Position numbers and translations under genes: made by a program
Notes under the pieces: generated by a model
What the model saw: the letters and a program-made list of their open reading frames with translations, nothing else
Told to the model about the DNA's origin: nothing
The model's database searches: none
Source of the DNA: Beroe ovata
Taxonomy: Eukaryota > Ctenophora > Nuda > Beroida > Beroidae
Assembly (NCBI GenBank): GCA_946803715.1
Contig: CAMPET010000022.1
Location: 274,511-338,510 of the forward strand
DNA: 64,000 nucleotides
Direction: 5' to 3'
Part shown: one piece after another, positions 3,047-64,000 of the stretch
Numbering within the stretch: position 1 is the first letter of the stretch
How the letters are laid out: each line of letters starts with the position of its first letter

Positions 3047-6000
3047 TTAAATGAATGTGGAATATGGAACCAACCTCTCCAACGTGTCAGCACATCTGCC
3101 TCTCTGTGAGTCTTCTGAATAGAGCTGTCTTGCGTTAGAGAAGACACGGAGTACATCCTTGACAAAGAGAGTCAACTTGGGATAGTGCTTTTTCTGGAAT
3201 TTCTTGTGAATCGTACTCAGATCTGAGAATGTTGGAAATGGATTATAGTTGGATGAATTTCTTTCAATGGCCACCTAGATATCATGCACCATGGATATAA
3301 CAAGATACTGGGAGATACTGACCCATGGGTTCCTTGATGACATCAAGTTCAGTGTCCGTCTTGGCGGGTTCTCTGAATGGCCACGACATTTTATGCATCT
3401 GAAGTTCTCTCAGGATCTTGATGAGGCCTGCAATCTGGATGTGTGTCAGCTTGGGTTCCTCACGGCCTTGCTGCTGCTTACATCTGCAATGATAACAGCT
3501 GGTTAACCTATGGATCTTGGTAATAAAGGATGCTCGAACCAGAACGCTAACTCCACGCCCCATTTTCCCACCTGTCACAGATATAGACCTCAATCTTCTC
3601 TGCCTCCATCTCACTAATCCCTACACACGTGCCATGGTACCACTCCTGACACGAGTCACACCCAATGTAGAAACTGTACTGGTTGTACGGGGTTCTACAA
3701 ATACAGAACAAATCTCCCTCTGGTTCAGCTGCCACATCCTCTTCTCCCTCCTCCTCCTCAGTTTTAGCCGGTTTAGCCACCGCCACCGAACTGGACTTGG
3801 CTTTGCAGTCGGCGCACGTGTAGCCGGACATGTTACGGGCCATGCTCGGGGATATGGCCACACACTTGCCGTGGAACCAGTTACTACACACGTCACACCC
3901 GATGTAAAACCGGGTGTGGTCGTAGGGCCGCTTGCAGATGCAGTACAGCGTGTCTTTCTTCTTGGGTGCGGACTTGTTCGTCTGGTCCTTGTGGTGCTGC
4001 ATAACACCGGGTCGGGTGGTAGCGCCGGCTTCCTGTGGCTGTACAGTGGAGCTCGCTGAGTCCTCGTTATCCGAATCCTGACTCGATTTATCGCCCTGGA
4101 ATAGAGATTGTACACTAAATGAAGGGGGCAGGGCCAGTGGATATGTCAAGTGATATACAGAGAGGATAGAACAATCAGAGTGGGTAGAACAATCGTATCA
4201 ACTATTATGGGAAACTGACACTATTTCCCTACCGTTGGCGGAGCAGTCAGCTTCTTGACGAGTTCCTGCTTCATGAGAAGTTTCGCGAGCACCTCATTGC
4301 CCCTGTTCTTAGCAGAGGCTATCTTCCTCAGCTTCTGTAGACGTTCTCTGATGGTGTTCCTGTCAACAGAACTAGACGTTGTCTTCTGTTTGAGTTTCAG
4401 AGTGGGTCTCTTCTTGTCCAGTGAACCCCTCCTCTTGGGTGATTCGAGCGCCGGTTTCTTGTACGGCATCTCAATGACAGGATGGGATATGTCATCTGAT
4501 GTCAGGCTGAGCGCGATGGTTCTCTGATACTGTCTCAGTTGTGCTTCCAGTGTTTCCCGTTTTCGCTTTGATAAGACTACAGGCTTTATCTCGACACAGA
4601 GTCTCTTACCACCGGGCAACCCTGGTTTCGCTTTTCTCTTACCCAGGATTTTTTCCACATCACGCGGTTTCTCGGCGGAGGGAAGCCTTATTCTCAGTGT
4701 TTCTGAGGTATCTGGGAACTTGTCAATCGATGACGTTGATGCACGGCCACCTAGAGAACTGAGAGATAACTTTGCAGAGGACTTCTTCACTCCGGGCTTT
4801 TTCGGGGGGAATTTGAACTTTGTTTTCGGTTGGAGCTTGTTCTTATAAAGTGGCTTCACGTGATGGGAATCTATTCTGATAGTGTTCTTCTTTATCTTCG
4901 TTAATTTGGTTAACGCAGGTCGGCCGGGAGATTTCAGAGATGGTCGACCAGGAGACTTCAATGACGGTCGACCAGGTGATTTTAGGGGAGGTCTGCCCAC
5001 TGGCCTCTTCTTGATGACACCTCCCGTTGTTTTCATCTCATCAACATTCTTCTGCAATCGCTGTAGCTTCTTTTCAATCTTATCTTGCGCCTTCCTGATC
5101 TTCTTTTCCTTGTCTTTCTTACGCTAAAACAAGTTTTCGTATGAATTCAAGCAAAGGACATTATAGACAATTTCTAAATGAAACTCAGTTCTATTTCGAG
5201 CTATTCTCACCCTATCAGCTTCTTGATTCTTCTTTCTTCGGGAAGCAAGCTCTTCTTCTTCCTCTCGCCTGATCTTGTCTGCTATTCTCTTACTTTCTGC
5301 TTCTTCAAACTTGATTTCCTCACGAATAACATGGGCTAAGTACTGCCGTTTCTTGAAGAAGATCTTCTTTAGTTGTTCCTGTCGATTTAGGGAAATGAGA
5401 CTTCAGCCTGTTGGATGTTGCAACATTGAACAACAATTGCTATCGGTCGATATGCAAACCTTTCTTCGTCCCAGAAGAATGTCCAGTTTACTTAGATATT
5501 TAATCTGTTCCTTCTCCCCAGTGCTTCGGCCCGGAATCCGGCCGGTGGACTTCTTGGATTTCCTCTTCTTACCAATCCTCTCTTTCTCTCTGTCCCGCAT
5601 GTCCTCCATTTCTACCCGATCCAGGATGTTGGTCAGAACCCGCCTCACCACAGTGGATCTGATAAGAGCAAACACGGTTACATATTGAAATTGAACTGTA
5701 TCGATGAAGGTTGTTAGTATGATGTACACCATCACGGATTTCCGACTCACATTTCAGAATCTACAAGGTATTTATCCGAAGGTTTATCTTCCCTTCCATC
5801 ATTCCACCGAGGCAACAGAGAATCGCTGTCCACTTTCACTTCGTTCTTCTTCTTCTCTTCCTGAAATTCAAATTTAGTTCAGGCAAGTGGTCACCCAGAC
5901 ATGTTTTATTTCGACGGATGATACGCTTCAGCATGGGCGGGAAACAAAAAGATATCATTCTGCGCGCGCGCGACGCGCGTTCAACTGGCTGGACTTTTGG

Positions 6001-11245: not shown

Positions 11246-12031
11246 TCATGCTTCATCTTCCTCCGACACTTTGGGAGCTAGGAAGTACCTGATACTGCCG
11301 ATATCGGCAATATCGTACTGCACAATCAACGGTGAATCGTTCCGCAACGTGAGTTTAACAAGGGGGCTGAGCTGCGATCCCTTGCAGAAATAGTTGAGGT
11401 ACTTGAACGCAAATGTGAGAGCAACAGGGTTATCCATTTCAACCTGGACCTTCTCCTCATCTTTGTCACTATTGTTTTCAAGCATGGTAATCGTGCCATC
11501 GCCGATGTCACCCGTCACTTTGAATGTCACGGAGTTTTTGAGAACTGCGATCGTGACAGCGTCACCAAATGCAGAGAGGTCTCGGCAAATTCGCTGGAAC
11601 TCGGCAGAAGGCATGGTTATCTGAGCGTCGTATCCATCGTCGGTGAGTGCCAAGTGCTCGGAATCGATCTGCATTAACTTCACGGTGAATTCAGACGTCC
11701 TCTCTTGATTGGGACTCTCGAAGCTGAATGTCACTGTGTCACCCGGGTCATCCTTATACTCCATTTTGAGGGCATCATCATTGTTGCAACACTTCATTAC
11801 TTTGATCATGGTGGCCAACTGGATACCCATGATACAATTTGTGTCACAACGGTAATCATCAAACCCCGTACTCTTCAGTAAGACGCTCACTAAACTGACA
11901 TGAGAAGCGTCCATAGCTTGGAGTGACATTCCTTCGGATGAAAGGTCCCAGTTGGCATCTTTAACCAACTCTCTGAGAGCTTCCAAGATCTTTTTCATAA
12001 GGCCCCCTTGAGGGAGTCTGGCTTCGAACAT
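11246..12031 (-). CDS. PCNA: Proliferating cell nuclear antigen (DNA sliding clamp)
   Basis: Single-exon gene of 261 codons, the same length as human PCNA. I start at MFEARL (12029-12031); an in-frame ATG-containing extension (MIQSRK) lies just upstream but the family begins at MFEARL. Hallmarks are MDASHVSLVSVLL, the GFDDYRCD strand, the interdomain connecting segment after SPNQE, and the C-terminal YFLAPKVSEEDEA, whose acidic end is typical. The lysine in AVLKNSV (residue 165 here) aligns with the regulatory Lys164 of human PCNA. PCNA forms a homotrimeric ring that tethers replicative polymerases and recruits PIP-box proteins in S phase and repair. The stop is only about 415 bases from the BPTF-like start, on the same strand. 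Absence of introns is unlike every long neighbour and could reflect an old retrocopy or intron loss. Confidence 0.98.
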   Translation of the reverse strand: MFEARLPQGGLMKKILEALRELVKDANWDLSSEGMSLQAMDASHVSLVSVLLKSTGFDDYRCDTNCIMGIQLATMIKVMKCCNNDDALKMEYKDDPGDTVTFSFESPNQERTSEFTVKLMQIDSEHLALTDDGYDAQITMPSAEFQRICRDLSAFGDAVTIAVLKNSVTFKVTGDIGDGTITMLENNSDKDEEKVQVEMDNPVALTFAFKYLNYFCKGSQLSPLVKLTLRNDSPLIVQYDIADIGSIRYFLAPKVSEEDEA

Positions 12032-13145
12032 TTTGCGACTCTGAATCAATGTTAGTCAACAAATTCCGCTAAAAAATCCGGAAACATTTCATCAATAAAC
12101 GGTAGTTGGGATCAGATTAAAGCTTATTCATCAGATTCTACTCTTATCATTAATAAAGTGTTAATATGAATTGAGTGGGATCATAATCAAGAATTGAAAA
12201 GGAAAGAAACTCAGAATCGAATAACCTGAGGTTCCGGGAAATTAGAATGCTTTTTTAGTTTCTTCCTATTCTGTATTTAACCCTAACTTCGTTAAAAATA
12301 TTTTACTCTATCTCCCATATTACCGAGAACTACCAGTATGTTTGTTTCGTATGTTCCCTGATGTTTTTGCAGTGTTGACAGGGTGTTACCGGGTTGATGT
12401 GTGTATACTCGATACAGGTCTAGGTGGAATAACTCTTACAGGAAGGAAAGCATGAAATCCTTTAAATCGATTCTGTGCAAATCATTGATAAAAATTATTG
12501 ATAAAATGGTTTCACTGAACACAAATACGGGGATAGTCCAAATATGAAACATGAATTGGAAATCCAATGATGTGTTCCACATGAAGAATAATTATGAGAA
12601 ATATAAAAATCACGCACAATAATACATTGAATCAAATAAAATGATCACACATCAGGATGACATCGACCAAGTACGGAAACGGCCATCTTGGATTTTGCCA
12701 TTTCTCACGCTCTTGCGGACGCTATAAACGCTTGCGGAAGAGCGCGGCATTTAAATTTTGCTTATCCATCGTTGCCTGGCGAAGAAAAACCCTGGTTTTG
12801 TGTGTGCGTCTTAACGCTGCACCTCGCTAACGCGACAGCTGGGACTAGCGTAGCCGGACGAATCTATCGATAAAATCCCTCGTCAAAGTACTGCAGCTGT
12901 AATGTAGGGCTTTTCCCTACTAAACCGTCGGCGCCGCGCTTGCCGCATGTTATCTGTCCACCGTTTTTTGAGCGCGGCGTCTTCATCGCATCGCGATCGA
13001 AGGCCGGGCCGAAACATGAAACAGTGTTAGTAAATTCTCACCCTACCCTTGCTGGCGCCGCGCGCGCGGAATGGCAATTGTGCCGACGGTAGGGTAAAAT
13101 CCTACAAAAGCATTGTATTTGTAATTCCTTGCAAGGGATTTGGAA
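12032..13145. other. Intergenic region upstream of PCNA
   Basis: AT-rich up to about 12660, then a GC-rich island (12690-13120) with TTATCTGTCCACCG followed by GCGCGG, related to the MITE family described at 13326 and 55580. No gene recognised. The PCNA promoter should lie at its left end but no definite motif was identified. Confidence 0.5.
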
Positions 13146-53371: not shown

Positions 53372-55454
53372 CTGAAATAATAAGTAGAACTTAGAAACAA
53401 GATCATCTTATGATTAAACGAAACACCTCCTGGCATAACAGTAACCCCAAAATTAATGAAAGATTCTATGGAACCAGGTAGGCATATATATAATCTCCAT
53501 CAGGGACCTTCTTAGTCAAGACTGCAAAGTCTTAGTTTTATTGATAACTCCACACAGTGGGGTAATGAAACATGAATGACCCTATGGCCTATACTGCTGT
53601 CCCGCCCTACTACGGCGAACATTGATGCAAAAACTTTTTGTACAAATACAAATTACAAATCACAAACATCCCAAAATTCCTGAGTATTTTCAACGCTGAA
53701 TGGGTTCCTGAATCCTGACTGTACTTCACTGAGGCATTATCTTCTATGCAAGCAATACAATGCAATTGCAATGACTAAGGACAAAAACATAAAAGCGATG
53801 GTTGCTCGATTCTGCTGGTGCATTTTCCTTCAAGGGAGGGGCCACAGAAATCAATTGCTTGTCATTTATTTGTGTTACCTTTCATGACCATCAGATTATA
53901 TCATTTTGGAAAAACAACCCTCAGGATGGAAGAACTATTGAAGTTCAAACCTGGTAGGATAATCAAATAGTCAAACAGCAGGTCTACGATCCAGTAGATG
54001 AACCCTGGCCACAGTGGTAGTCCCTACCTACTCTCTGAGTTTGCACTGCTGTTGGCAGCAGCTGACACTTTGACTCCCGTGTCTAGTTGCAGTTCTATCC
54101 TATTGTTAATATATTTATGGTTTGCACTTGGGAGTCCTTGGGGTTAACTAGTAGGTGTTGGCCTCTGGGGACCCGATGATCAGGTCCCAGATTCTACTGC
54201 GACCAGAAACTGGTGACCACAAAAGAAGAAGGGCTATTATAAGAGCCTTGACTATGTGTCCCCTGTGTATTGTCTACTACGCCTACTTAAACTGTATTGC
54301 ATCAAAAAAATGTTGATCACACACACACACAGGTATTAATGGGTGGTCAGGTGAAACAATGTAAAGCAAGTCTTACCTTTTACCTTAGCAATGGTCCAGG
54401 AGCATCGCAGCAGAAGGTGTTCAGATATACAATGCAAAATCATCCTTTAAATATAATAGTGATAAATATACAATTTACATATAAAGAGATCTTTGACAAA
54501 AGACATGTTACACGAATACTTGGTCATCATTTCAATGGATTTTCCAAGAGGTGTATCAATCCTAGTAGACCAAAGAGCTACACCTTATTTTCTGTAAATA
54601 GGCTATGAAATACCAGGGCTGCTGCCTGCCCACTCACTAAAGTCCAAACTGCTAGTTTACATGGACTTGCTCAAGAAGTGACAGTGAGGGTTAGGAAACA
54701 GAAAAAAACCAAGTTCAAGAATTTCATCACTGCAATCATGTCCTGGCCAACGCCAACATAACACCAACTTCAATAGGTGCCTTCAATTAAACACAAGGGT
54801 AGGTTTGAGCAGGGGTGTATCCAGGATTGGAAATACTGCTATAGCGCTATAATTGAAAATACTGTAGCAAGGTGTCACCTGGGAGTGCAGTCCCAAGAAG
54901 CCACTATACACAAATGACAAACTAATTGTACACAGACTATTAGAGGATAAGTTGAGATCAACCTAGCATACTAAATTCTTTAAAAGATGTACTTTAGGAA
55001 AATTGATCTTGTTACTTTTTAAAAAGTAGAATATTTGGATGTACCTGGTTAAGAAAATTGGTATTGAATGAACTTCTGAAAGCTCAGTTTGAGCCTCTAC
55101 CATCAATTAGAAAGTGGATCTATCAGTAGGTTTGTGGTGAACTAAGTGAGATAAATTCAGTTATCAGCTGTCATGGGTCACTGCATATGTGTGAATCGAT
55201 CATTTCAAGCTTTCAAGAATCTGTGTATTTAGTTCCATTTCCAAGCTAATCTAAAGCAAAGTATATGTACGCAACTATAGTCAGTAGTGCAACAAGAGGC
55301 ACAGCCAGTTTCAAATTGAGCAACCCCTCTTGTTACAATGAAATGTGAAGCAAGGACAACAGTAGATAGATCCTACAATAGATAGTAGATAGATCCTTGA
55401 AAGTTGTTTTTCCATTTCGCGCGCACCTTCACCGTCATAGATCAAAAAGTGCTT
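53372..55454. other. Intergenic region
   Basis: No gene recognised. 53940-54260 has denser, less AT-rich sequence (around GTAGATGAACCCTGGCC and GGGACCCGATGATCAGG) that may be an old SINE or LINE fragment; I cannot assign it. Confidence 0.4.
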
Positions 55455-55558
55455 GTCAGATTTTACCTGACCTGTTTCTCGCGCGCGCGCCTTCGTCGAA
55501 GGCACTCGATGAAGGCGCGCGCGCCGCGCGAGAAACAGAGGTCAGATAAAATCTGACA
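55455..55558. mobile_element. GC-core hairpin, GTCAGATTTTA family
   Basis: GTCAGATTTTACCTGACCTG then TTTCTCGCGCG on the left; CGCGCGAGAAACAGAGGTCA then GATAAAATCTGAC on the right. Between them lie CTTCGTCGAAGG and TCGATGAAGGCGCGCGCG. A fragment with GAGGTCAGATGAAATCTGAC recurs at 55744. Confidence 0.75.
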
Positions 55559-55579
55559 AAAATTACCGGATGATATAAA

Positions 55580-55697
55580 TATCTGTCCACTGTTTCCTGC
55601 GCGCAGCTCAGCGCGCGCGACTTCATCGAAAGCCGAAACGGGCCGCTGTTTCGGCCTTCGATGAAGGCGCGCGCGCGCAGGAAACAGTGGACAGATA
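55580..55697. mobile_element. GC-core hairpin MITE, TTATCTGTCCACTGTTTC family (second copy)
   Basis: TATCTGTCCACTGTTTCCTG then CGCGC on the left is mirrored by GCGCGCAGGAAACAGTGGAC then AGATA on the right. The inner stem is CTTCATCGAA.GCCGAAAC / GTTTCGGCCTTCGATGAAG. Same family as 13326-13482. Confidence 0.8.
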
Positions 55698-55812
55698 ACA
55701 AGGCCAAGGCGCGCGAGAATGGAGAAACACTAACAGAGCACAGAGGTCAGATGAAATCTGACAAAGAAGTTTTTGATGAAAGGGGATCAGTGATCACTGA
55801 TCAGGGCGAAGT

Positions 55813-55865
55813 AGTGACTCCAGCCGTTGAAAATTAAATTTTAATTTTCAACGGCTGGAGTCACT
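55813..55865. repeat. 53-bp near-perfect palindrome
   Basis: AGTGACTCCAGCCGTTGAAA plus ATTAAA, one central T, then the exact reverse complement. GATCAGTGATCACTGATC just left and CTGATCACTGAT just right extend the symmetry. It probably is another hairpin element. Confidence 0.85.
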
Positions 55866-56313
55866 AGCTCCCCTGATCACTGATTTAAAAAAGGCCCGTT
55901 TTTCGCACTTCCGAGGGCCATAACAATAACATGAATTGGAACATCAACTTCGTCAAATGGTAAATGTAATGCAANCATACTGCGTTTTCATCGAGGTCAA
56001 ACTCACGCATCTGCTATCATCATTCACATTGCAACTTCTTCCTCACAACCTCCCTTTCCCAATGCAAAAATAAAAACATATACTATTGCCTCTTTCTCAG
56101 AACCCCCTGACAGCCTCTTCCACAGTTGTCTTTACAGTGATGAAACATTAGATATAGACAGACATTGCCTAGTTCACAAACCACTCCGTGAATGCCGTTA
56201 CTGTTCACGCAACCTTCGTCCGCTCCATGGAACACACCGTGTTAATCATTCTACCCAACTGATCAATATCAACTGCATCTCTGCATTGTTACCGCTCAGT
56301 GAAACAAATCTCC
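55866..56313. other. Region upstream of the Transib/RAG1-like gene
   Basis: Contains a single N at 55975 (assembly join). Pyrimidine-rich stretches occur at 56020-56060 and 56090-56120. No promoter motif or exon could be established; the true first exon of the next gene may lie here. Confidence 0.4.
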
Positions 56314-59300
56314 ATGAACACATTGTTCGTTTCTTTGTTCATATGGATTTTCTTAATCCGACGAGTCCATTCCTCTGGGGATGAGACCGATACTCCCTTC
56401 ACAGGTCGAGGAAAGTACAGGGAGTATACGCTGAGGTCTAACAGGAATGTCCAGCGTCATAGAAGTGAGTTTTTATTATTTCAATTCGTATTCATGGCTA
56501 GTAGGTGTTTAGGTTTAAGTCTTAACCTTTAAGCTAGATGATTGTCGATCGCTCATCAAAATGTCTCTCCAGCTGCACAAGAGATCAACGACATGCTCGA
56601 GGATGCTGGTAGCGACTGGTCTGAGTCAGACTCAGAGGAGTTTGATAGTGAGCAGATAGAAGTGGGGGTCGACGCTGATGACATCTTGGAGTACAGAGAA
56701 CTGCTGGAATCTCTCGATAACGGTAATTTCAGAATAATTTTTCAGCATACACTAGGCTGATCAACTTAATAACGCCTTTTCATAGTCATGAATATTACTA
56801 TTAGGATTGTATTACTTCATTTCAAATCAATGTAACACTAACTGCAGGAGGAGACGATAAGCCAGCTGAACCAGATTTCTTGAAGTTCATGAAGGAGGAG
56901 GGCTACCGCAGGGAACAGTCAGATTCAGATCAGAAGGACGATGATGATTCTGCCGGTCCATCATCAAGTGAATATTTCAATTTATTTTACTCACTCTACC
57001 AATTTTTTTGTTATGCGAAGTGTTATGATTATATCCATCGTCATAATCAATTGCAAAATCCATGATATAACGATTATCCATCCATGAGGACATCGAGAGG
57101 AAGATCCTGTGTTTGAGACACCCAGACCTGGAAAGAAGAGGAAGAAGCGATCATCGATTCTCACAAAATTGATGTTGCTTAGGATCGTAGAAGAAATCCG
57201 CATCAGAAGAACTGGGAGAAAAGTGCGAAAGGTGACTCCAGTGGAAGTTCTCGACCGTTTTCTCAGTGCAGAGGAAATTGACGTTCCGTCCAGAGTGAAG
57301 AAAGATGCGGCATCCAACATTCAGCGCTACGTGAGTATTTTTGAAACAGTCATGGTGAAATTCGACCAAATCGCGTATCTGCCTAAGTTACTTTTGGAGT
57401 CATGACTCTGAAAGGAATTGAATTCGAATATGAAATGGCATTGGACGATCGTAAACATAGTCCTTTTCAGAGGGAGAAACTGCGGAAAATTCAGCTGGCA
57501 AAGAAATCGTTGGATGAGATCCCTGATGATGACATTGTTTACGATTTCACGGGGAGTATCACACCCAGGACTTCTCGCGAACAGAGGAAGGACTTCGATA
57601 GTTTGAGTAGACAGGGCAAGTGGCATAGGATCAATGCCACCGTCAGGAGAGCTGAGATAGCTATATCCCAGGTGAAATGAAGCTTTACACAGCCACTTCA
57701 AGCACCCCGTTTGTTATTTTTACAGTTTTTTTCAAGCCCTCAACTTCCGATCGATTCAGATTTGTGAAAGTGATGATGTGCCTCCAGAATACATTACAAC
57801 TGCTCTGAAACTCAAGTTTGCCGAGGAATCCTCTCATTCTACGAGGAACCAGACAGGACCAACTGCAACCGAAGCCCTTGTACGGATTCCTTGACTTGTG
57901 ATTTCTATGAAATATATAGTTATCGATTGCTAGCCTGCCATCTACATTCCAGTTTCTAAGGATAGTATGTTTTCAGGCACATATGGTAAACATCAAAGCT
58001 ACCAAAAGGACTGCCACGCAGATATCGCAGTTTGCAAAGCGGTATGACTTGTACATCCCTGGTGAGAGAGTGCTCCGTAGAGAAAGAAGGAAAAGATTAC
58101 CACCCTACACCTTTGGAAGGTACATTTTCATGAATCACTGATCATATTTTCCATGGTATTGTTGATATTGACACTATGATATGCTGTTTTCACGAATGGA
58201 TTTGAAATTTGATTTCAAACAGGCAAGTTCCAGTGGATGACTCTGGTGATACCAAGATAGACGTTGGAGTGTTCATTAAACGGTCAGACATGGTGAAGCA
58301 GGCCCTCCAGCAGCTGCTCGAGATGAAACACGTTGTTCCATCTGGAAAAACGAGAATCGTTCTGCACATGGACTTCTATCAAGGTACTATAGACCCAAAT
58401 ACTATAAAAATAGTATAATAGTACGCGAAAATCGCACTCCTTACCAATCCGTCTCAAACATTCGTGACAGACGAATTGGAATATATCAAAAAATGCCATA
58501 TAAGACACATCCATACTATAATACTCAATTTATATAATTTATATAACTCAATTTATTATAATACTCAATTTATACTCAATTTGGAATATGCTCATTGGAA
58601 TATGCTTATATCCACGCCAATTATTCGCGACATTTTAGCTCTCCAGATCGCGGACCCGCACTTGGGCTTGCTGACACGTCATTTACGATCTAACCCACAT
58701 CGAAAATATTGTTATTTTTATCATGAGTCAGCAGTCAGCACCGGAGCCTGTCCTTCTAGTTCTATAGGTAATTCATTTATGGGCTTCAAAGCAAATTCCA
58801 TGGGACCAACACGTATTGTTTATTCAACACGGTGTGTTCTGGGCTAATTTTTCACCATTGTTTTCTATTCTTCAAATTTCCACAAAGATATTTCATTGTC
58901 GAACACATCATAATATATTTGATCCTGATATATGATGGAAAAGACAGAGAATACTGGTCTGATTCGGTTTGACTCACGTGGATTTTCCATACAATAAACA
59001 CGATTGAGATATCATCAAAGTAATTTCTCTATTTGTGTTTCACACTCAATGTGACCGCATATAATTAGCAAATAGCTTTAGGCCCATCCCCTCCTTCCGG
59101 TAAATGTAATTATGAAGCAAAATTGGAATTTCCGGAGAGAATTGGTGCCAGGAGGAGACAATTTCCAAGGTCCCCTTTTCCAGATACTGCCTTATGGAGC
59201 ATATATTACCACACGTACTACTTCTAGCGTGTGATACAGATTCTGAATCGCGCAGAATTATGGTCGCGCGAGAGCTTGAGACAACATACGTTGAGTAGTG

Positions 59301-62300
59301 CAGCTATATTATGATTTGGGGATCTTTCCCAAAGTATAATGTCAATGACGAAAATTAACTTCAGGTATGGTGCAAGTTCTCATCAAGAAGTTTATGATGT
59401 GCTGTCATCGAAGTTGACGAAGGCGGGGCACAGTTTGAAATCCTGCCAGACTTTCGCTGTCACACTGATCACATGTTCAGAGGCGGACTATAGTCTCGGC
59501 CAGAATGTAAGAGTTTTTTTTTTTCAATCAATGTTCGTTGTGTAACTATAATGATTCGAAGATTTCATTTCGAATCAATAGCTCATTATTATAATGACGC
59601 TTTCTTCAACAGGGCAATCCTGAAGTGATTCCCGGCGAGATTCTATTCAAGTGTAGGGACCCCAACAGTTATAAGAACCTCAAACCCCTAGCACTGGTGA
59701 TGGAGAAGGAAACAGCAGATCTGCAAAAGTTTTTGATGGAGAGGTACTTATCTGATCCTTTCATATCAGATCAACATTAAACCTTATTTGCTGCACAGCC
59801 ACGCATTCGCAAACATTCTCTATTGTCAGGTACCCTGATGGGAAGGTGGGCTACACGTTCAAGATGGGGGATACGGAGTTTGAGGTATACTGCAAATATG
59901 AGACCTGCAAGCTGGACGGCAAATCAAGAAAGGCGATGATGGGACGGGGAGGAGGTTACTGCTGTTACTGCAGTATCACGATGGAGGCCTACCACACGGC
60001 AGCTGGTGTCAGAGTACAGGTACTGGAAATAGTGAGACTTTCAGTTTGAGTTTGGTAGCACTGTAGCTGTCACGGGAATATAATTATCAATTATAGACCC
60101 TATACTTATACTATTGTTAATAACGGCAAAAGGGTCATAAGATTTGTAGATGTGTCCATTGTGTCCATCACCNTCACACTGATCACATGTTCAGAGGCGG
60201 ACTATAGACTCGGCCAGAATGTAAGAGTTATTTTTTCAATGATCAATGTTGGTTGTGTAACTATAGGTAATGATTCGAAAATTTCATTTCGAATAAATAG
60301 CTCATCATTATAATGGCGCTTCCTTCAACAGGGCAATCCTGAAGTGATTCCCGGCGAGATTCTGTTCAAGTGTAGGGACCCCAACAGTTATAAGAACCTC
60401 AAACCCCTAGCACTGGTGATGGAGAAGGAAACAGCAGATCTGCAAAAGTTTTTGATGGAAAGGTACTTATCTGATCCCTTCATATCAGATCAACGTTAAT
60501 CCTTATTTGCTGCACAGCCACGCATTCGCAAACATTCTCTATTGTCAGGTACCCTGATGGAAAGGTGGGCTACACGTTCAAGATGGGGGACACGGAGTTT
60601 GAGGTATACTGCAAATATGAGACCTGCAAGCTGGACGGCAAATCAAGAAAGGCAATGATGGGACGGGGAGGAGGTTACTGCTGTTACTGCAGTATCACGA
60701 TAGAGGCCTACCACACGGCAGCTGGTGTCAGAGTACAGGTACTGGACATAGTGAGACTTTCATAGTGAGTTTGTTAGCAATTCCGGGAATATAATTATCA
60801 ATTATAGACCCTATACTTATACTTTTGCTAATTAAATAGCAATATCATTCATAGGACTCATTCATTGAGTTCAACACTGAGGAGAAGATGAGGGAGTACG
60901 AACGTTACCAGACCACTGATGGGAGCATCGATGTTGGGATGCAGAGTGCTGACCGGGACGGATGGACTGGGGTGCCGTACGGGATAGCTAAAGGTATTGT
61001 TGTGACCCACGCAGCTCTCAACATTGCAGCTTGGGTTCTAAAAGTGGCAATCAAGGCGAACATGTAAGTGTCACAACTTCAAATAATTAATTGCTGTTTC
61101 ATGATTGTATCCATATTAATAACATCCCTATTTCCAGCTTTGCTTCACATGATCGCTTTGTTGGGAATGAGGCGTGGAAAATGCGTGGTGAACTGAAGGA
61201 GATGTACAAGATTGAGGGAATCGACTTCCTGAATAAGGTTTTCAAACTATTATCCATGTCCCGTTTTTGGAAATGAGTCGTAAAGTTACCTACTGCCACC
61301 ATTATATTAACATGTGAACTACTCAGTTGAAGCACGGACCTCAGAGGTTGGTGATGAAAGACGTTGGAAAGGGGAATACTGGTGGAGGTTTGACAGGTGA
61401 GACATTCTTTGCACTTGTAGCAAGAGTTTATCGCGTGTTTTTATAAGTAGTGAAAGGCATTTGTACAAGAGAAGAGTTCTATATCAAATACCAACTCACA
61501 GGAAACCATGCGAAGAAGTTTCTGCTCCATGGCAAAGACATACTACCGCAAATCATGACTGATGCTGATAAGGGTAGGCGACTGGGAGGGATCACAGAGT
61601 TGCTCTACGTTGTGATCAGAGTGCTCAACACGGACAGTAGGATCGACTTGGAGCTCTACAAGAGGATATGCCACATGATTGGAATCCAGGTCATCACACA
61701 CTTCCCCTGGGCAAGAATGAACGAGACAATGCATGCGGTGAGTACGACAGGAATATCAATATCATACAAGGTTGTTTCTAATTGTCACATCACATTTATC
61801 AATTCATTTTTCATCATATGGTGATCATTGAGTGACGCCAGTTCAATTTTCAAGGTTCTCGCTCACAGTTGGGAAGTTATCAAGAACAATGACTGCCGTG
61901 GCCTCAAGGACATGTCCGAGGAGGGTATCGAAGCTTTGCAGAAACATGTTCGTTATGCAAGGTAACGTAAATAATTTTCTCAAATTTTGAGTTTATTATG
62001 TTCATAGAGTTGCTTTCTTAATTGCAGTATCACAAATCGATATAAATTTTGCAACTTTCAGGAGTGCTTATTCGTGGCTGGGAAATTTTCACACGAATCT
62101 TGGACAGGCATTGGAAGCACTAGTCCTTAGCTCAGACCTTTACCTTAACTATTTGGTGGAAAAAGTACCGACAAAAAGTGCCAAGACGGTGAATAGCATC
62201 ATTTTTTCGAGCTTCTATAAGAGTTTTATAACACTGTGGAAAATCAATAATCGTTGAAATGGATTTCAGAAGCCGCTTTACCCAGACAGCATCGAGAGCT

Positions 62301-62383
62301 CGTCTGAGAGAGGTGGTCTAAACTTTCTGAAGAGAGTGATCATTGATGAAAGCAGCACAGAATCAGGCGAGCATAACACATGA
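56314..62383 (+). CDS. Transib/RAG1-superfamily transposase-like gene, about 18 exons
   Basis: Exons by eye: 56314 or 56405-56464, 56573-56722, 56848-56967, 57089-57330, 57471-57671, 57726-57879, 57977-58119, 58223-58383, 59365-59506, 59613-59743, 59830-60019 (the last three repeated at 60174-60750 as a second allele), 60855-61063, 61138-61237, 61327-61396, 61502-61737, 61855-61961, 62062-62188 and 62270-62383; roughly 900 residues. An acidic N-terminus (DWSESDSEEFDSEQ) and basic stretch (GKKRKKRSS) precede the core. Core blocks in Transib/RAG1 order: RIVLHMDFYQ; QTFAVTLITCSEAD; LKPLALVMEKET; EVYCKYETCKLDGK and a CCYC zinc-type pair; DVGKGNTGG with TGNHAKKFLLHGKDI; THFPWARMNETMHAVLAHSW; DMSEEGIEALQKHVRYAR (catalytic-Glu helix); LALVLSSD-like EALVLSSDLYL. 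The order and spacing match Transib and the RAG1 core. Two joins are out of phase by one base (T7 run at 57726; 58383 to 59365). It could be a domesticated gene, an intron-rich RAG-like transposon, or a decaying copy. The start is uncertain. Confidence 0.8.
60174..60840. other. Unmerged second allele of three Transib/RAG1-like exons
   Basis: After the single N at 60173 the sequence repeats 59460-60110 at high identity, starting TCACACTGATCACATG. Exonic differences are few and mostly silent; introns differ by small indels. Only this copy continues into the next exon at 60855. Count these exons once in any gene model. Confidence 0.85.
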
Positions 62384-64000
62384 GGAATTGGGGAGCTAAT
62401 CTGCAGATTTGAAGATTGGATTCGATTCATTAAACAGCAAAACACATTTAACAGGGGAAGTATTGCGTATTGCATTTGCTACAGACTTCAGTTTTTTGCT
62501 GACATGAATCGATAGAACTATAACACACGACTATTTCACATCAGGTCAAAAGAAGCGTGTTAGAAACTGCATATTGTGTATAGGAACTGCAAAATTGAAG
62601 ATTCATGTCCACTCACACTCTGCTCGAATGCGACAAGCACAATTGAGGGAACAAAGGTGTGCAGTTCAACACCGTGCAGTTCAACACCGTGCAGTTCAAC
62701 ACCGTGCAGTTCAACACCGTGCAGTTCAACACTGTACAGTTCAACACTGTGCACTGTGCAGTTAGANGCAGTTCAACAACGTACAGTTCAACAACGTACA
62801 GTTCAACACCGTGCAGTTCAACAGCATTCTACTAAAGTATTGACGATGACATGTGCTAGGACTGGAAGTGTCCAAAACAATAACTATTAGCGACATTTAT
62901 GCGGATTAAATTGAGCTTGGCACCTGTATTTAAATGATTTGAGTGTGATAACGTCATGAGAATGAGATTGAGAAGTAGTTAGACGCGATGAGAATCAGTC
63001 ACAGATCTAGAAGTAGAATGAAGAATGCGCATTGCGCGCGCATTCTGGCTCGCTGGAGATCTCGCGATTTCACGTAATTTCACTGATTTCACCCTTGTTT
63101 CAATGGACGTTTTCATAATGAGCTCATGCTTTCTCATATACCATCTTTTGATATGTTGTGCATTAGAGAAAGAGCTACATTTTGGTACATTCATGCCCGT
63201 TGTGTCTCGTTGTGTCTAGAAGTTATGAGCATATTCGTGCAGGTCATTTTTCGTGTTTTTCATCAAAGTACTGTGTGGCCTAGGAATGGGCTAGAGATGT
63301 CGTATTTTCAAGGATATGTGAATCAATCTCTCTTCTATTCAATGCAAAAGGTTTCATGACAAAAGATTTCTTCGTTTCGGCGCACTGAGGGTTTGAAATG
63401 ACCTAGGTCGCGCGATCGTCAGAAAAACGCGAAAAATCGCGAATTTCTTAACTTGACAAACCTGCGCAGCGCAGCCACTGTGGGCTGTCGATGATAGCCC
63501 CTGTCGAGAATTTCATTGCGCGCGCAATGCGCCGCTGGCGCTCGCCGCTTCGCGGCTCGCGTCAGTAGGGTGCGCCCTTTTTTTCAACTTTTTGAGGCAC
63601 AACCCTGTATTTGTAGATCTCGATGAGCTGATTNGCAGTTCAACACCGTGCAGTTCAACACCGTGCAGTTCAACAATCAACACCGTTGACTGTGCAGTTC
63701 AACACCGTACAGTTCAACAGCATTCTACTGAACTTAAAGTAATGACAATGACATAAGCTAGGACTGGAAGTGTCCAAAACAATATATATTAGCGACATTA
63801 ATGCTGATAAAATTGAGCATGGCACCTGTATTTAAATGATTTGAGTGTGATAACTTCATGAGATTGAGAAGTAGTTAGAAGAGATGAGAATCAGTCACAG
63901 ATCTAGGGAGACCAAGGAATGAAAATGAAGAATGCGCATTGCGCGCGCATTCTGGCTCCCGAGATCTCGCGATTTCACGTTATTTCACTGATTTCACCCT
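62384..64000. other. Repeat-rich 3' flank with an unmerged allele
   Basis: 62880-63095 and 63765-64000 are alleles of the same sequence (shared GGACTGGAAGTGTCCAAAAC, TGGCACCTGTATTTAAATGA), separated by joins at 62767 and 63634. Each carries a small hairpin GAATGCGCATTGCGCGCGCA (63024 and 63929 regions). 63485-63570 is a GC island with GCGCGCGCAATGCG and CGCCGCTTCGCGGCTCGCG. No gene recognised. Confidence 0.6.
62659..62822. repeat. 15-bp minisatellite GTGCAGTTCAACACC
   Basis: About ten copies with AACGTACAGTTC variants, interrupted by the N at 62767; a second array of the same unit starts at 63635. It begins 275 bases after the stop of the Transib/RAG1-like gene. Confidence 0.95.

Follow-up and report, generated by a model that had tools for sequence, protein, structure and literature searches.

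The 64,000-nucleotide stretch of Beroe ovata DNA analysed here (the window) lies on contig C22 of a 77.8-Mb, 534-contig genome and carries an intron-rich gene that we place firmly in the Transib/RAG1 superfamily, the transposase stock from which RAG1, the enzyme that builds vertebrate antibodies, also came. On balance we think it probable that this is a host-resident gene, either domesticated or long immobile. The window copy as assembled is missing the first catalytic aspartate (D1), whichever splice choice is made, and two relatives elsewhere in the genome, C193 and C475, are biologically more interesting than the window copy itself.

As read from the sequence, the gene starts with an ATG at 56314, ends with a stop at 62383 and has 18 exons separated by 17 GT-AG introns (see table), in agreement with the figure of about 18 exons given in the earlier note; 893 residues are readable when exon 9 is started at 59388. 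The 325 residues encoded by exons 1-6 are acidic first and basic after, which bears out the acidic N-terminal extension that had been claimed, and against Pfam they give nothing credible (best E 0.18). The transposase core occupies exons 7-18, and there the motifs on which the earlier note had relied, KLDGK with CxxC, GKGNTGG, GNHAKKF, a helix, the glutamate block and LVLSSD, were all found between exons 11 and 17 in the order claimed: MHA/VLAHSWEVI spans the junction of exons 15 and 16, SEEGIEALQKHVRYAR falls in exon 16 and LVLSSD in exon 17. An extra exon within intron 8, where many candidates are open and none was noticed to have family likeness, was dropped because relatives carry the D1 motif in exon 9.

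Table. Exons of the Transib/RAG1 superfamily gene and the duplicated exon block, in window coordinates
Feature	Position	Strand	Content
Exons 1-6	56314-56464, 56573-56722, 56848-56967, 57098-57330, 57471-57671, 57760-57879	+	Acidic N-terminal extension and basic PGKKRKKR; open frame over GT-AG junctions
Exons 7-8	57977-58119, 58223-58383	+	Pre-catalytic region; the end, ...HMDFYQ, adjoins the D1 motif
Exon 9	59365-59506; alternative in-frame start 59388	+	D1 site, YGASSHQEV
Exon 10	59613-59743	+	PNS...KPLALVMEKET block
Exon 11	59830-60019	+	D2 (KLDGK, aligned with RAG1 GYDEK) and CxxC zinc ligands (CCYC)
Second copy: exon 9 end, exons 10 and 11	60174-60811	+	Starts at lone N 60173
Exon 12	60855-61063	+	Remainder of the long zinc-domain insert and VTHAALN helix
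Exons 13-14	61138-61237, 61327-61396	+	GKGNTGGG, at the end of exon 14
Exon 15	61502-61737	+	GNHAKKF, ...MNETMHA
Exon 16	61855-61961	+	VLAHSWEV; catalytic Glu in SEEGIEAL
Exons 17-18	62062-62188, 62270-62383	+	LVLSSD; C-terminal tail without Cys

The surroundings of the gene are repeat-rich. Dense GC-rich palindromic repeats lie just upstream (55444-55873), pieces of which are present in several of the fetched loci, and at 62660-62830 and 63640-63730 there is a tandem repeat of about 15 bp (GCAGTTCAACACCGT) and after it a longer near-duplicate unit, which is found again farther down the contig. Elsewhere in the window, the minus strand at 11246-12055 holds an open frame of 269 residues that, we presume, reads like PCNA.

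Membership of the Transib/RAG1 superfamily, the principal claim of the earlier note, is borne out by core homology in phmmer, in a protein search and in two family profiles. With the whole window protein, phmmer against PDB sequences matched HzTransib (6pqn) at 6e-6 and, weakly (0.04), the RAG1L 6b40, which we take to be the lancelet protein. When residues 400-893 were compared with 5.77 billion proteins, in a search that scored word-sharing candidates only, there was one match at E <= 1: a protein of 553 aa, P0001 (E 5e-45, with 32% identity over 75% of the searched region). A profile of six sequences (the window gene, P0001 and the C193, C475, C26 and C71 relatives from the same genome) added P0002-P0008, for a total of eight proteins at E <= 0.01, and against PDB its E-values were 1.1e-18 for HzTransib, 7.6e-12 for RAG1L, over the core, and 2e-7 for RAG1 (4wwx). 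The family placement is independent of the window sequence, because a profile of P0001-P0008, from which the window gene was excluded, still matched HzTransib (5.5e-14), RAG1L (8e-10) and RAG1 (1e-5). The Pfam RAG1 profile matched six of the eight family proteins at E <= 1 (best 1.8e-4, the score shown there being below the curated cut-off), and the protein database assigns PF26100 to P0001 as well as to some of the named insect Transibs. P0001 is 40-54% identical to the other family members and 26% identical to the window gene. Viral and prokaryotic sequences, scanned with five family proteins other than that of the window, gave 235 and 307 pattern matches respectively and no relative, and searches of open-licence PMC texts showed, among the results listed, nothing in print on this family apart from the count of ctenophore Transib-like proteins in PMC9435367.

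Phylogenetic analysis used 381 columns of a 27-sequence alignment under LG+F+I+G4, with 15 Transibs and two RAG1-type sequences as references; besides HzTransib, the Transibs were 14 proteins hand-picked from 120 listed of 968 matches, those with names being insect proteins. In the best tree, whose references include no known Subgroup I Transib and no Chapaev, the window gene and its family are split from all 15 Transibs and both RAG1-type sequences (98.5/98), and so form a third clade beside RAG1 and Transib. This puts the gene outside RAG1 plus RAG1L, though not decisively: in an AU test under another model (Q.pfam+F+R4), the best tree received 0.865, a tree joining the window gene to RAG 0.18 and one joining it to Transib 0.16. 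That the gene is RAG1-like in the narrow sense is accordingly doubtful, the best tree placing it outside the RAG1 clan, though not decisively, and no RAG2 having been found.

The zinc domain gives a further point of comparison. Counted from the second Cys of the CxxC pair up to the conserved His, the window gene has 67 residues; the eight family members in which both landmarks exist have 68-76 (P0007 is without the Cys), RAG1L has 60, RAG1 has 64 and every one of the 15 Transibs has 28-30, the figure for HzTransib including 26 residues entered as X. RAG1L and Subgroup I Transibs are described as having retained the alpha11-alpha12 insert, which binds RAG2, and Subgroup II as having lost it (PMC9435367); the long insert of the window gene, equated with this insert by length and place, may represent the same region. 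The CTT1 tail reported for Subgroup I Transibs and RAG1L (PMC9435367) is not visible by eye in the window gene, because the C-terminal tail encoded by exon 18 has no Cys. An exon-wise search of the 77.8-Mb genome, run without a RAG2-positive control genome, gave a best E of 0.17 with the RAG2 profile and no match with RAG2_PHD. An open reading frame with a PHD finger at 3547-4197 was considered as a nearby RAG2; by eye it looks like another chromatin gene, and the RAG2 profiles found nothing significant.

In the 27-sequence alignment, KLDGK supplies D2, CCYC the zinc pair and SEEGIEAL the catalytic Glu (E), and the D2, E, CxxC and GNxA motifs of the window gene align with those of HzTransib, RAG1L and RAG1. 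We take D1, D2 and E of the family to correspond to D600, D708 and E962 of RAG1. The catalytic set of this copy is incomplete as assembled: D2 and E are present but D1 is absent. The D1 motif is DG(L/F)DGAGN in the family and GFDGASNQ in HzTransib; exon 9 of the window reads YGASSHQEV, against MDGASSHQEV in the decayed relatives C18 and C152, and at the first catalytic Asp the window is 4 bp shorter than both, within a short direct repeat. If the ordinary acceptor (59365) is used, exons 8 and 9 are out of frame and a stop follows 17 codons past exon 8; splicing to an acceptor 23 bases further along preserves the frame of all that follows, at the cost of the D1 motif. Departure from the canonical residues is also seen in one of the 15 Transibs, P0090, which has N instead of D at D2.

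Close to this lesion the assembly itself is peculiar. The sequence from 59460 to 60100, containing the end of exon 9 and exons 10 and 11, recurs as the second copy listed in the table, with 608 of 631 aligned bases identical and a single N marking its start. In the C62 and C18 relatives, too, the matched stretches end at lone Ns, and the duplication is therefore probably an assembly or haplotype join. Over 122 codons the two copies show five silent and two replacement changes (dN/dS 0.10, p 0.006), and they differ at 7 of 366 aligned exon bases versus 16 of 263 aligned intron bases (p 0.009). Lone Ns at 60173, 62767, 63634 and other positions stand at or near joints of near-duplicate stretches, which suggests haplotype or gap-filling artefacts of the assembly.

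Searching the genome with the window protein gave at least 40 matches at E <= 10, at least 21 of them in C22 itself, and those outside C22 fall into three sets. Members of the first (C18, C152 and C62) are fragments of the window gene's own type, introns included, whose match ends differ. The C18 copy has frame-breaking indels and three stops in aligned codons, its raw identity to the window being 0.89-0.96 in exons and 0.88-0.96 in introns, and exons 13-17 of the window gene were aligned in none of these three decayed relatives. The second set (C26, C71 and C37) is about half identical to P0001, its members being mostly intronless in the core and broken or cut by joints. The third comprises C193 (L037:1707-5772), C475 (L035) and C459; all are intron-rich, the C459 model containing one stop and the models of C193 and C475 retaining D1, D2, E and the zinc pair, although C475 was modelled against C193 and its model contains a one-base exon. 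Uninterrupted relatives on 3-5 kb contigs from elsewhere (P0002, P0003 and P0005) may be of DNA or RNA origin. The many near-identical copies by which the earlier note would have recognised an ordinary transposon were not found; the counts, which are lower bounds, comprise three decayed relatives and others that are 25-46% identical per matched stretch.

Several other features of these loci and of the genome were recorded. Intron 8 of the C18 and C152 copies (L031, L038) contains an insertion, at least part of which is common to both, that is absent from the window; in L031 its ends read GGGTGTG.../...CACCCCCTGTA, and it looks like a small inverted-repeat transposon. At C459 an inverted self-copy (L036:5266-7706), 97% identical over 2.4 kb, takes in part of the transposase-like gene. 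Profile matches in the genome numbered 11 for Wnt and 20 for innexins, with two weak ones for Frizzled (best 0.002), and there were 87 homeodomain matches, none of the 20 inspected looking Hox-like. This gene content suggests a ctenophore; a glass sponge was rejected on account of the Wnt matches, Oopsacas being reported to lack Wnt (PMC10280926), and sponges in general on account of the innexins, which they are not known to have.

Intron positions indicate that the family is old. Six of the 13 introns in the C193 model share column and phase with one of the 12 introns of the window core (P 8e-11), and the single intron of the C26 model, which was entered by hand, is among these six; allowing six columns' slack produced no further matches and, in this looser test, a P of 8e-4. 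It follows that the ancestor of these genes probably already bore introns, and therefore that intron number marks an old family and not domestication of the window gene alone.

Coding constraint was assessed in two further comparisons. Over 544 codons, C193 and C475 have a dS of 0.54 and a dN of 0.036 (dN/dS 0.066), with 507 of 544 residues and 1454 of 1632 coding bases identical; their 12 paired introns are 62-91% identical, or 79% overall over aligned bases, with 629 gap positions. The window gene and C18 differ over 342 codons by 35 silent and 35 replacement changes (dN/dS 0.26, p 3e-7), and here constraint is visible only in the silent/replacement split, because the raw identities of exons and introns are alike. 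Hence the dN/dS below 1 that the earlier note had asked for is seen in both comparisons, as it is between the two copies of the duplicated block. Purifying selection is strongest for C193 and C475 and weaker for the window gene, and an active element lineage can also yield constraint of this kind.

What the lesion in exon 9 means for the window copy is a separate matter: a non-cutting domesticate, a fresh pseudogene and a consensus error are hard to tell apart, and either a fresh pseudogene or an assembly flaw would account just as well for the missing 4 bp and for the duplication at the lone N. It is possible, if somewhat unlikely, that the gene worked until the 4 bp at D1 were lost and is now decaying, its open downstream exons being a sign of how recent the loss was: the ordinary splice junction leads quickly to a stop and the copies of the same lineage, C18, C152 and C62, have already decayed or been cut short. 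Nonetheless, the remaining exons are open with GT-AG junctions, a frame-keeping acceptor is available 23 bases downstream, and the copies of exons 9-11 differ mostly at silent sites (five of seven changes). We regard it as unlikely that the fault lies instead in the assembly or consensus at exon 9, such that the real gene is a complete, host transposase-derived gene with all three residues. The joint at the lone N with its duplicated exon block is some 800 bases from the lesion, and the lesion falls within a short direct repeat, as such an error would have it, but the remainder of exon 9 is clean. Both explanations apply to the window copy alone and can stand together with an old host family.

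An intron-bearing DNA transposon lineage that is mobile now or was so recently is a further explanation, which we consider quite improbable. Such a lineage would fit the small set of broken or cut copies represented by C26, C71 and C37, the uninterrupted P0002, P0003 and P0005, and the inverted pairs that surround some of the genes. Among 25 pairs listed, two weak ones bracket the window gene, 55048-55065/63435-63452 (18 nt, 78%) and 55200-55215/63386-63401 (16 nt, 81%), C193 is bracketed by a 25-nt, 76% pair (among 25 of 31 pairs), and around C18 there is a 50-nt, 94% pair (L031:3361-3410 and L031:8477-8526). However, the bracketing pairs are not common to different loci and are no better than many non-bracketing pairs in the same lists, while the 50-nt arms stand 0.5 and 1.1 kb away from the C18 copy and belong to a dispersed repeat, present in 5 of 10 fetched loci and as short pieces in the window, at places that do not match. 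The ends of the C18, C152 and C62 matches also differ from one another, and the C193 and C475 proteins are closer in sequence than their paired introns. No convincing element ends are seen at the window gene or its relatives, which is not proof that there are none. The earlier note preferred a host gene or an old element to a recent copy of Transib; the shared introns and the coding constraint support an old gene of the host, the copies are few, and the gene is presumably immobile.

Under the preferred reading of a host-resident gene, an intron-bearing transposase gene would have settled in the host before the window gene split from C193 and C475, and would then have been duplicated within it. 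Judging from their sequences, the C193 and C475 proteins may have remained able to cleave DNA through nicks and hairpins, as Transib and RAG1 do, because D, D, E and the zinc ligands are kept. The protein of the window gene as assembled keeps the zinc pair and helical frame and not the full metal site; for this reason it may, if active at all, bind DNA or act as a partner without cutting. Taken further, one could imagine an ancient and independent domestication, in an animal that branched early, of a transposase of the RAG1 superfamily, which gave rise to a small intron-rich family. In this picture C193 and C475 would cut or rearrange DNA in a programmed way, and the window gene would provide a non-cutting partner or DNA-binding subunit that has lost its metal site; we offer this as a very doubtful conjecture.

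RAG1 is the classic example of a transposase that became a recombinase of its host. If our reading is true, the ctenophore genes would bear on how many times transposases of this stock were tamed: they would form a second intron-rich family that settled separately, probably outside bilaterians, carrying a RAG1-like zinc insert and no RAG2, and would offer an independent test case. Among known systems, HzTransib (6pqn) is the best PDB match of the family profile and shares with the window gene the order of the core, the xDGK at D2, CxxC, GNxA(R/K)xF and the SEE glutamate; two decayed relatives of the window gene also carry its DGAS at D1, which in the family reads DGAG. Unlike Transib, the window gene has 17 introns, an insert of 67 residues compared with 28-30 in the 15 Transibs, a lost D1 and no convincing terminal repeats. 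Subgroup I Transibs, compared here by description only, fit the long insert: a RAG1-like alpha11-alpha12 insert is described in these and in bacterial Transibs, along with six Transib-like proteins in ctenophores, but CTT1 and asymmetric terminal repeats are also reported for Subgroup I (PMC9435367), and neither was recognised in the window gene. RAG1 (4wwx) and RAG1L (6b40) resemble the gene in the profile match across the whole core and in their inserts of 64 and 60 residues, and differ from it in that its genome yielded no RAG2, it falls outside RAG1 plus RAG1L in the best tree, it has no CTT1 and it has lost D1. RAG1L genes with several exons are reported from sea urchin and lancelet (PMC9885083). 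Compared by description only, sea-urchin RAG1Lb is a RAG1L, whereas the window gene lies outside RAG1L in the best tree; according to the same source (PMC9885083), the unpaired RAG1Lb is immobile, is without a RAG2 partner and acts alone in a different function.
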